Virus record (IMG/VR): IMGVR_UViG_3300012920_000191
Span: 1-28,420 of that record
Reading direction: 5' to 3' (one strand)
DNA length: 28,420 bases
Origin: a virus
Every line of letters starts with the position of its first letter. Within the stretch, counting starts at the first letter, position 1. The position numbers and the translations under genes are program-made. The notes under the pieces are model-generated. The model saw only the letters and a program-made list of their open reading frames with translations. It had not been told where the DNA came from and did not search any database. Below, in pieces: positions 5,621 to 11,043 of the stretch.

Positions 5621-5905
5621 ATGACACAACTGACCGCGCAAGACATTGCTAATGTTTTGCAAATTATTGACCTTGCTGCACAGCGAGGTACTTTTAGAGG
5701 TGCCGAACTTTCAAGTATTGGAATGGTACGAGATAAATTAGAGCAAGTGCTGAGGCCACCAGAAGAGCAGGCACCTCAAGCTCCTCAAGGGGAACTTAAT
5801 TTTGATACGGAAGCAGGAACTGTTTCTGAGAAAATTGAAGATGCTGAAAGTGAGGAAAAGGATGCCGTGGCCGAGAAAAAACAGACCTCCAAAGGGAAGG
5901 CGTAA
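5621..5905 (+). CDS. Hypothetical protein between gp45 and gp44, 94 aa
   Basis: The N-terminal half is a compact helical segment (LTAQDIANVLQIIDLAAQRG ... GMVRDKLEQVL). The C-terminal half is a low-complexity Pro/Gln/Glu/Lys tail that is probably disordered. GGAGAAG precedes the ATG, which directly abuts the gp45 stop. Similar small proteins sit here in T4-like cyanophages, but no function is known to me. Its 3' end contains a second, overlapping ORF in another frame. Confidence 0.75.
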   Translation: MTQLTAQDIANVLQIIDLAAQRGTFRGAELSSIGMVRDKLEQVLRPPEEQAPQAPQGELNFDTEAGTVSEKIEDAESEEKDAVAEKKQTSKGKA

Positions 5906-8284: not shown

Positions 8285-8651
8285 TCTAATCAATAAAATA
8301 AGCCACTCGAAAGATGTCAGTGATGTGACAGCTAATGATATTGCTGTAGATTATGTTCCTTTTGTTGTCAATAAAACATTATCATATCATCCTGATTCTT
8401 TGATTTATGCTAACGAAATGAATCAAAGACAACATCTAGATAAACAACTTCAATTTCAGTTTTACCTAAATAGTCTTAGACCTAGGAAGCGTTTTGCTAA
8501 ATGGGTTAAAGCTGAAAAGGTAGATAATTTAGAAGCAGTGAAGTTATCATTTAATTATAGTAATGAAAAAGCATTGCAGATAATAGATCTCCTTAGCGAT
8601 GAACAAATAAATGAAATAATAAAGGATCGCACAGGTGGAGTTGAAAAATGA
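8271..8651 (+). CDS. 62: Clamp loader small subunit gp62
   Basis: A 126-aa protein matching the short gp62 of T4-like marine phages. It has DYVPFVVNKTLSYHPDSLIY near residue 27, ANEMNQR, an LRPRKRFAKWVK basic segment and a YSNEKALQIIDLL helix at the C-terminus. T4 gp62 is longer (187 aa). It is the non-ATPase partner of gp44 in the 4:1 clamp loader. Position before regA agrees with T4 synteny. The ATG at 8271 lies within the upstream ORF, and the stop overlaps the regA ATG. Confidence 0.85.
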   Translation: MGLFDLINKISHSKDVSDVTANDIAVDYVPFVVNKTLSYHPDSLIYANEMNQRQHLDKQLQFQFYLNSLRPRKRFAKWVKAEKVDNLEAVKLSFNYSNEKALQIIDLLSDEQINEIIKDRTGGVEK

Positions 8652-9043
8652 GTTTAATAGATTCACTCGTTGAAGTGAAGCTGAATGATAGTGAAGATTT
8701 TCTAAAGGTTAGAGAAACACTAACTCGAATTGGCGTAGCTTCTCGAAAAGATAAAACATTATATCAATCATGTCATATCTTACACAAACAAGGCAAATAT
8801 TACATAGTACATTTCAAAGAACTTTTTGCTTTAGACGGTAAACCAACAAACATTTCAGATCAAGATGTAGCTAGAAGAAACACTATAGCTAATCTATTGT
8901 CAGAATGGAAACTAGTATCTTTAGTTGATTCAAACAAAATTAAAGATCCTATTGCACCATTAAGTCAGGTTAAGATTGTTGGGTTCAAGGATAAAGAAAG
9001 TTGGGACTTGGTTACTAAGTATAGTATTGGCAGAAAGAATTGA
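8648..9043 (+). CDS. regA: RegA translational repressor
   Basis: A 131-aa protein (T4 RegA is 122 aa). It begins LIDSLVEVKLNDSEDFLKVRETLTRIG, followed by a Lys-rich QSCHILHKQGKYYIVHFKELF strand pair and DVARRNTIANLLSEW, the recognisable RegA core. RegA binds AU-rich start regions of early mRNAs, including those of replication genes, and blocks ribosome binding late in early phase. Its place directly after gp62 matches T4 order. The ATG overlaps the gp62 TGA. The frequent AU-only stretches around starts in this window are plausible targets, but none was tested. Confidence 0.9.
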   Translation: MSLIDSLVEVKLNDSEDFLKVRETLTRIGVASRKDKTLYQSCHILHKQGKYYIVHFKELFALDGKPTNISDQDVARRNTIANLLSEWKLVSLVDSNKIKDPIAPLSQVKIVGFKDKESWDLVTKYSIGRKN

Positions 9044-9709: not shown

Positions 9710-9737
9710 TTGACTTTCAAAAAATATATATTATATA
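9710..9737 (+). promoter_or_regulatory. Early sigma70-like promoter for the Hsp20 cassette
   Basis: TTGACT at 9710-9715 is followed after 16 bases by TATATA at 9732-9737 (alternating AT allows 16-18). It is preceded by AGCTG, as in the promoter at 19629. Expected start near 9744, directly at the first thermometer hairpin. Confidence 0.65.
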
Positions 9738-9745
9738 TATTACAT

Positions 9746-9796
9746 GGATACCGCGGGTGCGGGTCCTTCTACAACCTTGCTTAGTCAAAGGAGGTT
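9746..9796 (+). promoter_or_regulatory. ROSE-like RNA thermometer in the hsp20 leader
   Basis: Two hairpins fill the leader. Hairpin 1 (9746-9766): GGAT-A-CCGC pairs with GCGG-GTCC around a GGGT loop, with one bulged A. Hairpin 2 (9773-9796): AACCTTGCTT pairs with AAGGAGGTT around AGTCA, leaving only G9779 unpaired, so the whole Shine-Dalgarno is masked. The UUGCU opposite AGGA with its single extra G is the hallmark of ROSE elements, which control small heat-shock genes in alphaproteobacteria by melting on warming. The ATG lies four bases after hairpin 2. Structure was judged by eye. Confidence 0.78.
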
Positions 9797-9799
9797 AAC

Positions 9800-10273
9800 A
9801 TGACAGGCAATACTTTTACGTTCCCTCGTGGAGCATTTGTTGGTTTCGACCATATTTTTAATGATCTAGAAAGAATGGCAACAGCTCATCAGAAGGATCA
9901 TTATCCCCCACATAACGTAGTAAAGAATACTGAGGATGAGTATCTTATTGAACTCGCCGTAGTAGGATTTAAAGAAGAAGATATTGATATTACGATGCAT
10001 GATGGTATTCTTACTATCAAAGGTAATCGTGATAAGAGACGTAATCAGGATCTTTATGTACATAAAGGTATCAGCGGTCGTAAATTCGAAAGATCATTTA
10101 GACTTTCAGAATTTGTAGAAGTCACTGGAGCAGATCTTGAGGCAGGATTATTAACGGTCCATTTGGAAAGAATCCTTCCCGAAGAAAAGCGTCCTCGTAA
10201 AATTTCAATCAATAAATTGCGAGGTAAAAAAAATGACGGAACTAGTGCTGAACTACTCAACGAGTCTACTTGA
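9800..10273 (+). CDS. Small heat shock protein, Hsp20/IbpA-type
   Basis: A 157-aa alpha-crystallin-domain protein. An N-terminal arm with GFDHIFNDLERM is followed by the beta-sandwich YLIELAVVGFKEEDIDI, DGILTIKG, a GISGRKFERSFRL segment and GLLTVHLERILPEE, with an I-S-I motif after PRK at the C-terminus for oligomer assembly. It is an ATP-independent holdase that keeps unfolding proteins soluble. Hsp20 is known from T4-like marine phages and may help capsid or replisome folding. AAAGGAGG before the ATG is a near-perfect ribosome site that is masked by the predicted thermometer. It overlaps the next ORF by 41 bases. Confidence 0.93.
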   Translation: MTGNTFTFPRGAFVGFDHIFNDLERMATAHQKDHYPPHNVVKNTEDEYLIELAVVGFKEEDIDITMHDGILTIKGNRDKRRNQDLYVHKGISGRKFERSFRLSEFVEVTGADLEAGLLTVHLERILPEEKRPRKISINKLRGKKNDGTSAELLNEST

Positions 10274-10445: not shown

Positions 10446-10618
10446 TGTTAGATTTTCTTAGAACATTCTTTTCACTTGATAAGCCCCCAATTGATAGACG
10501 TACTTATAACGATTTACACAAACTTACTGATAGAGAACTAAACGATATTGGTATTTCTAGATGTCAAATCGCTATGGTAGCTAGAGGAATTGATCCTCAG
10601 AAAGGTTGGTCAAAATGA
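10445..10618 (+). CDS. DUF1127 (YjiS-like) mini-protein, 57 aa
   Basis: A short protein containing the DUF1127 core: RRTYNDLHKLTDRELNDIGI followed by SRCQIAMVARG. In alphaproteobacteria, Arg-rich DUF1127 proteins act in RNA turnover (CcaF1 of Rhodobacter binds RNA) and in phosphate or stress responses. A phage copy could alter host RNA metabolism, but that is inference. It starts at the ATG overlapping the previous TAA and ends in the ATGA that starts the pseudoazurin gene, so the cassette is translationally coupled. Confidence 0.82.
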   Translation: MLDFLRTFFSLDKPPIDRRTYNDLHKLTDRELNDIGISRCQIAMVARGIDPQKGWSK

Positions 10619-11043
10619 AGACACTTGCTTTTTACTTAGCATTATTTGGAATGGTTTTTGCTGTTGGTTCAGCAAACGCTAAGACAATTGAAATGCTTAA
10701 CAAAGATGACGCTGGAAACAAAATGGTTTACAGTGAAGAAATAGCAAGAGTTGGTACAGGTGAAACTATTACTTGGGTGCCAACATCTAAAGGTCACAAT
10801 GTCGAATGGGTTGCAGGACCTGATGGAGTTGAACTTCCTAAGAAGTCTAAAAATGGCAAAGAAGTTTCTATGACATTTGAATTACCTGGCATCTATTATT
10901 ATTGGTGCACACCACACAAAGGCATGGGCATGATTGGTCTTGTCGTTGTAGGTGATGACGTATCTAATAAGGATGCAATTGCCAAAGCTAAGGCATTAGG
11001 TAAATCGAAGAAGAAACTTAAAACACTTTTAGGAGAACTATAA
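10615..11043 (+). CDS. Pseudoazurin (exported type I blue copper protein)
   Basis: A 142-aa precursor. Residues 1-22 form a signal peptide (MKTLAFYLALFGMVFAVGS, cleavage after A-N-A). The mature part has the cupredoxin copper site: H61 in KGHNVEW, then C98, H101 and M106 in WCTPHKGMGM, with the pseudoazurin C-x2-H-x4-M spacing. The ALGKSKKKLKTLL tail also fits pseudoazurin. These periplasmic carriers pass electrons to nitrite reductase, cytochrome oxidases or peroxidases. I chose the ATG at 10615 (overlapping the upstream stop) over the in-frame TTG at 10606. As an auxiliary metabolic gene in a phage this is unusual. Confidence 0.92.
   Translation: MKTLAFYLALFGMVFAVGSANAKTIEMLNKDDAGNKMVYSEEIARVGTGETITWVPTSKGHNVEWVAGPDGVELPKKSKNGKEVSMTFELPGIYYYWCTPHKGMGMIGLVVVGDDVSNKDAIAKAKALGKSKKKLKTLLGEL

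Follow-up and report, generated by a model that had tools for sequence, protein, structure and literature searches.

The hsp20 gene carried by the viral genome fragment analysed here (28,420 bases in full, designated the window) is preceded by a short leader composed of two hairpins, the second of which hides the Shine–Dalgarno (SD) sequence. Judged from sequence comparison, a ROSE-type two-hairpin leader of this kind, by which bacteria keep the chaperone untranslated in the absence of warmth or stress, is present on nearly every sampled marine T4-like phage hsp20 gene, and, based on structure and homology, these phage leaders almost certainly represent a viral ROSE-like branch outside the curated families of Rfam. 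The leader would quite probably act as a phage-encoded ROSE-like regulatory element in which the SD is closed at low temperature and opened by warming or stress, and temperature-responsive translation through it is considered likely.

Architecture of the hsp20 leader in the window

The virus record that constitutes the window carries T4-like genes encoding RegA, a clamp loader, a family B DNA polymerase and UvsX. Its hsp20 gene (positions 9800 to 10273, + strand) specifies a small heat-shock protein (sHSP) of the IbpA class with a length of 157 amino acids, which is matched by Pfam HSP20 (3.6e-18) and PHROG 432 (7.9e-37) and in which equivalents of Arg93 and Tyr34 are both present. Shortly downstream, at positions 10606 to 11043, lies a small gene for a cupredoxin, the start of which resembles a signal peptide (Pfam Copper-bind; PHROG 'PetE plastocyanine').

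Folding of the leader reproduced both the coordinates and the pairing put forward in an earlier, sequence-only reading of the window, i.e. two hairpins, the second masking the SD and leaving one G unpaired. Hairpin I (9746 to 9766, + strand) is arranged as GGAU-(A9750 bulge)-CCGC-GGGU-GCGG-GUCC. In hairpin II, the ROSE hairpin (9773 to 9796, + strand), AACCUU-G-CUU pairs with AAGGAGGUU such that the ribosome-binding site is masked and a single G (9779) is left unpaired, all bases of the SD AAGGAGGU (9788 to 9795, + strand) being paired in the leader-only fold. The UUGCU at 9777 to 9781 (+ strand) corresponds to the U(U/C)GCU motif as defined in PMC3669281, which is a signature of ROSE-like thermometers (PMC3669281, PMC11182007). 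The features by which the ROSE-like class is recognised, namely a position in the 5′ UTR of an sHSP gene, two to four hairpins with the SD in the 3′-most of these, and an imperfect UUGCU/AGGAG pairing with an unpaired G, were all observed in the window. The earlier wording 'exactly such', used in likening the element to the ROSE elements of alphaproteobacterial sHSP genes, is not supported as it stands, the element being of the short, two-hairpin type. Taken by itself, the leader is unremarkable, since its folding energy is close to chance (z −1.07; 31 of 200 shuffles were as stable) and its Rfam score is sub-threshold, and its status as a real element was therefore decided by comparison with relatives.

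Upstream of the leader, a T4-late-like promoter box, TATATATA (9732 to 9739, + strand), exhibits seven of eight matches to the TATAAATA consensus. As hairpin I starts 7 nt after this box, the transcript probably starts with hairpin I or immediately upstream of it. A box of the TATA(A/T)ATA type was found to end a few nucleotides before hairpin I in ~50 of 55 distinct upstream regions, and the exact TATAAATA is present in ~20 relatives, including Melnitz and Mosig; exact octamers of the late-promoter type were not enriched within the window. The T4 late promoter pattern has previously been used in the form 5′-TATAAAT-3′ (PMC3037559, PMC9004378). A possible −35 element, TTGACT (9710 to 9715, + strand), is situated 17 nt before TATATA (9733 to 9738) and is weakly conserved, with a score of 3.6 of 6 in relatives versus 3.1 in shuffles. 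In view of the late-type box and this weak −35 enrichment, the early promoter originally assigned to the site was rejected as the preferred reading, late transcription from hairpin I appearing to fit the sequence better. In two loci (L003 and L009), inverted repeats (GGTTTACAATCAAATTGTAAACC; TTCCTGAACAGGAAG) were observed right before the TATA box, ~20–45 nt before hairpin I, where they may represent an upstream terminator or an operator.

Conservation and homology of phage hsp20 leaders

A search of viral contigs yielded 80 hsp20 loci, the leaders of which fold into the same two hairpins. The two-hairpin leader was also identified in the isolate phages Melnitz, Mosig, HTVC115P, C48C1, Syn33, S-RIM12, S-RSM4, ACG-2014e and AG-345-P14, is shared by Atu_ph07 and Phosso, two jumbo phages of rhizobia, and was detected in 12 additional phage records, among them S-PM2, P-HM1 and PA5oct, a jumbo phage of Pseudomonas. 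A census of 79 distinct leaders from phage hsp20 genes showed U(U/C)GC opposite the SD in 75 and the strict U(U/C)GCU in 68 (45 UUGCU and 23 UCGCU; a further 7 carry UUGC(A/G)), indicating that the UUGCU/AGGA pairing with its extra G, as claimed for the window, is conserved among relatives. The four exceptions are the divergent S-TIM54 and the sub-clade formed by L027, L029 and L096, in which an A replaces the normally unpaired G of the motif (UUACU). The motif and its unpaired G are kept in phages of cyanobacteria, SAR11, OM43, rhizobia and Pseudomonas. Furthermore, all 79 leaders possess a single bulged purine in hairpin I (69 G and 10 A), and the pair beneath it is almost always U-G or C-G. 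At 20 °C, the median predicted probability of an unpaired SD was 0.08 for 58 distinct hsp20 leaders versus 0.42 for 125 other gene starts on the same contigs, a comparison in which the leaders share descent, so that the sequences behind its p-value are not independent of one another.

Several of these loci display additional features. In L051 (281–323) and L050 (13–55), a second hairpin-I-like element (GGAAGAU-G-CCGC...GCGGGUCUUU) occurs directly after TATAAATATA and before another small gene, the product of which resembles the window protein encoded at 5621 to 5905; judging from its sequence, hairpin I may thus be a reusable 5′ module. L096, a phage-like contig assigned to a Muricauda bin, contains a permuted tmRNA gene of alphaproteobacterial type (1053–1430), the end of which lies 9 nt upstream of the match to the ROSE model. 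Within the window clade, codon 3 of hsp20 (at 9806 to 9810 in the window) usually keeps a GC complementary to the ROSE motif despite a Gly/Ser change.

Covariation was assessed in two alignments. In a MAFFT alignment of 14 leaders, for which no structure was used, RNAalifold recovered both hairpins, and compensatory changes were seen in 8 of the 14 pairs. When 56 distinct rows were fitted to the model, 98.8 % of cells were paired (versus 82.4 % in shuffled and at most 63 % in slid controls), and 107 cells were changed on both sides (versus 19.6 in shuffles and 16 or fewer in slid controls), with two-sided, compensatory changes in seven of the eight pairs of hairpin I and two of the six modelled pairs of hairpin II. 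This 56-row alignment is biased towards structure by construction, a bias of which the 14-leader alignment is free; a further MAFFT alignment, of very diverged leaders, misaligns hairpin II and was not used for that hairpin. The compensatory changes sought in the hsp20 leaders of related phages were accordingly found in both hairpins, and covariation together with hsp20-specific model matches rules out a chance origin of the leader structure.

A covariance model generated from the window relatives (R1) was applied to 346 kb of sequence from 66 loci and returned 58 matches at E-values of up to 1, of which 56 are hsp20 leaders and the remaining two represent one site in two related contigs. In whole records, the largest of 490 kb, R1 usually matched the hsp20 leader alone, the extras being one weak match in S-RSM4 and two in G012. 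No R1 match at an E-value of 0.01 was obtained in 150 Pseudomonadota genomes. An extended model derived from the R1 hits (R2) recovered all 12 leaders of the additional phage records, which had been absent from model building (E-values of 7e-7 to 0.06). In 100 Pseudomonadota genomes, the top R2 match (27.9 bits, E-value of 0.03) was a leader in front of a gene for a Pseudomonas-type IbpA that starts with MSNVLSLAPLFRQSVGFDRF, and no downstream ORF was found for its other bacterial match.

At the gathering threshold, Rfam returned no match at the window leader, and none of the tested phage leaders reaches the cut-off. The ROSE family match anticipated for the window was obtained over the full length of ROSE_3 (RF02523), although at 18 bits it falls below the cut-off of 43 (E-value of 0.15 over 4,227 families); having missed the gathering cut-off, the window leader is not a filed member of the curated ROSE_3 family. 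Sub-threshold ROSE_3 matches were located exactly at phage leaders, the best being that of Melnitz (34.1 bits), with L100, L099 and L055 at 33.9, 32.2 and 27.3 bits, respectively. The ROSE_3 model scores 69 bits on the P. aeruginosa ibpA leader; ROSE_2 (RF01832) scores 100 bits on that of E. coli ibpA and matches no tested phage leader. Used as positive controls were L083 (OQ572409.1) and L084 (MG065691.1), two UNVERIFIED 'phage' records that apparently consist of bacterial DNA with P. aeruginosa-like and E. coli-like ibpA genes, respectively, and their ROSE leaders. The reciprocal model matches indicate that the phage leaders are homologous to ROSE_3 members, and conservation, covariation, the specificity of the phage model and its retrieval of a bacterial ibpA leader together identify the window leader as ROSE-like in both its sequence and its structure.

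In a tree of 80 Hsp20 proteins, the deep branches of which are weak, phage Hsp20s fall within the IbpA class. The lineage of the window constitutes its own phage clade (19 phage rows, support 100/99) outside the alphaproteobacterial IbpAs that were sampled; Hsp20s of cyanophages and pelagiphages are positioned in other groups, and those of rhizobial jumbo phages are closer to bacterial IbpAs. A search of bacterial genomes with a closer Hsp20 alignment gave 13 loci, 5 of which are phage-like by leader and tree. The suggestion that the phage acquired chaperone and switch from an alphaproteobacterial ancestor was rejected as stated, given this separate phage clade and the nearest Rfam family being ROSE_3, which matches P. 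aeruginosa ibpA; such a capture may still have occurred in deep time, with nothing in the tree showing it.

Possible control by temperature, self-repression or other means

According to the favoured reading, transcription, probably from the T4-type late promoter, would begin at hairpin I, which would protect and organise the 5′ end of the mRNA. At low temperature, the imperfect hairpin II with its unpaired G would keep the SD closed, and upon warming it would melt or refold with the coding region, allowing 30S binding and Hsp20 synthesis. By analogy with E. coli IbpA, free Hsp20 oligomers may additionally hold the leader shut until misfolded phage or host proteins pull the chaperone off, in which case Hsp20 output would track protein-folding stress late in infection. 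Hairpin II of the window is similar in predicted stability to that of the tested P. aeruginosa element (free energies at 37 °C of −5.6 and −4.7 kcal/mol, respectively). For the isolated hairpin, melting was predicted to be gradual and to occur at 55–80 °C in phages and bacterial controls alike; because it is gradual and high in the controls too, the calculation cannot reveal a switch at sea temperature. The two-hairpin leaders of Pseudomonas confer heat-induced translation and melt according to structure probing, hairpin I not being temperature-responsive (PMC3669281).

Access to the SD may alternatively be set by an exchange between two mRNA states rather than by melting, the ROSE hairpin competing with a hairpin in which UUGC (9777 to 9780) pairs with GCAA in codons 3 and 4 (9807 to 9810, + strand), a partner predicted by folding that would free the SD. 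When 18–45 nt of coding sequence were included, the predicted pairing of UUGC shifted to the coding region and the SD opened in the window and many relatives, to a degree that varies with the stretch folded, and for some of the clade members with a two-state fold the predicted transition is steep between 10 and 30 °C. Codon 3 of the clade is mostly GGC or AGC, which are rare in the window (46 of 410 Gly and 26 of 407 Ser codons, respectively). Conversely, GCAA is missing in other clades (L027, L032 and L050), cyanophage leaders are without the two-state fold, the prediction changes with folded length and the shared codons are explicable by descent, so that we regard the exchange as unlikely. 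The refolding with the coding region may reflect either an artefact of the modelling or a genuine open state, the rare codons fitting the latter while being confounded by descent. Quite unlikely, too, is a constitutive leader devoid of sensing, in which hairpin I stabilises the 5′ end and hairpin II damps or delays translation: it would fit the gradual predicted melting and the possible stabilisation of transcripts by 5′ hairpins discussed in PMC3669281, yet a plain complement of the SD would damp translation equally well, whereas U(U/C)GCU and its unpaired G are retained across the phages of diverse hosts.

Temperature may also act indirectly, with the leader serving mainly as an aggregation sensor through which Hsp20 represses its own 5′ UTR until misfolded protein sequesters it. 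Open-ocean hosts experience small temperature changes, which favours such a sensor. The positions equivalent to Arg93 and Tyr34 are highly conserved among 94 phage Hsp20 rows (91 R and 3 K; 91 Y and 3 F), and the bulged purine of hairpin I is retained in every leader of the census while its flanking pairs covary, as would be expected for a protein or tertiary contact; in Pseudomonas, moreover, hairpin I is not the temperature-responsive part (PMC3669281). The IbpA protein of E. coli binds its own 5′ UTR and blocks translation via Arg93, with Tyr34 also being required, and Arg93-dependent self-repression, in which Tyr34 mutants fail as well, has been reported for E. coli, Cedecea and Vibrio (PMC10474464). 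However, the Arg marks the IbpA class in general, being present in 33 of 45 bacterial rows (the other 12, of another class, carry a G), and may be structural, and hairpin I is not established as an IbpA binding site. Given the conserved Arg and Tyr positions and the invariant bulged purine, an aggregation sensor based on self-repression deserves serious consideration, by itself or combined with thermosensing, although a leader acting mainly in this manner is considered the less probable case. IbpA-style self-repression, with which thermosensing is compatible, is on this analogy put forward tentatively. A full proteostasis circuit in T4-like phages is a more speculative extension of the same analogy: phage Hsp20, encoded by a late gene, would silence the mRNA it is made from for as long as no misfolded proteins of capsid or host titrate it, the bulged purine would belong to the site recognised, and temperature would act as one of several inputs. 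The translational repressor RegA, encoded nearby at 8648 to 9043 (Pfam Translat_reg, 1.1e-43), would be another candidate ligand, regA and hsp20 being neighbours in the window and several cyanophages, but the leader is also found in phages with hsp20 away from regA and matches bacterial ibpA leaders, which renders a RegA binding site highly improbable.

Comparison with known systems

In agreement with the earlier statement that no phage ROSE element had been described, none was found in the open-access literature, and a survey of cyanophage S-CREM1 that used Rfam listed RNAs of other kinds but no ROSE. The hsp20 gene belongs to the core genes of T4-like cyanophages (PMC3037559), and no account of the control of its translation was found in the open-access literature. 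A putative Pho box, ATTCAAACTCGCTTAAATA, was described in 2024 upstream of hsp20 in S-PM2d, with no PhoB binding and no phosphate response (PMC10976474). In S-PM2 (L171), this string contains the ROSE anti-SD strand and is followed by AAAGGAG and the start codon; the Pho-box reading of the S-PM2d site is contradicted by the published gel shifts (PMC10976474). In P-HM1 (NC_015280.1; L168, 256–310), the annotated GTG start of hsp20 sits at the start of hairpin I and the ROSE element ends at an ATG ~50 nt downstream, and the annotated start is therefore probably wrong.

The comparison thus corrects two annotations, i.e. the supposed Pho box of S-PM2d and the start codon of P-HM1, and widens the ROSE class beyond bacteria to include viruses. 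A near-universal leader would give abundant marine viruses an RNA that directly couples chaperone supply to heat or folding stress, which is relevant to infection in a warming ocean. Furthermore, dozens of diverged natural ROSE sequences reveal important positions, such as the near-invariant bulged purine of hairpin I.

A 2024 paper lists lambda cIII and SPbeta blyA as the earlier phage RNA thermometers and adds a fourU element (PMC11182007), located in a gut phage near a sigma-70 gene. These systems are temperature-responsive mRNA structures of phages (PMC4166951, PMC11182007), as the leaders described here would be, but differ in architecture and associated genes, none being a ROSE element and none acting on a chaperone. 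The resemblance to IbpA self-repression (PMC10474464) comprises an IbpA-class sHSP, the Arg93 and Tyr34 equivalents and a ROSE-like leader, the phage side being known from sequence. As in the classical ROSE elements found in rhizobia and in enterobacteria (ROSE_2, RF01832, in the case of E. coli ibpA), an sHSP gene has its SD masked by U(U/C)GCU, although the classical elements consist of three to four hairpins (PMC3669281) and the phage leaders of two. Compared with the short ROSE of Pseudomonas ibpA (ROSE_3, RF02523; PMC3669281), the phage leaders are distinguished by their location in a phage genome, a probable T4-late rather than sigma-32 promoter, a shorter hairpin I and scores of 18–34 bits versus the cut-off of 43. 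Both nevertheless consist of two hairpins within ~60 nt in front of an sHSP gene, with U(U/C)GCU opposite the SD, and both share the bulged G above a U-G pair in hairpin I (GCGGGAU-G-CCG in P. aeruginosa) as well as reciprocal covariance-model matches.
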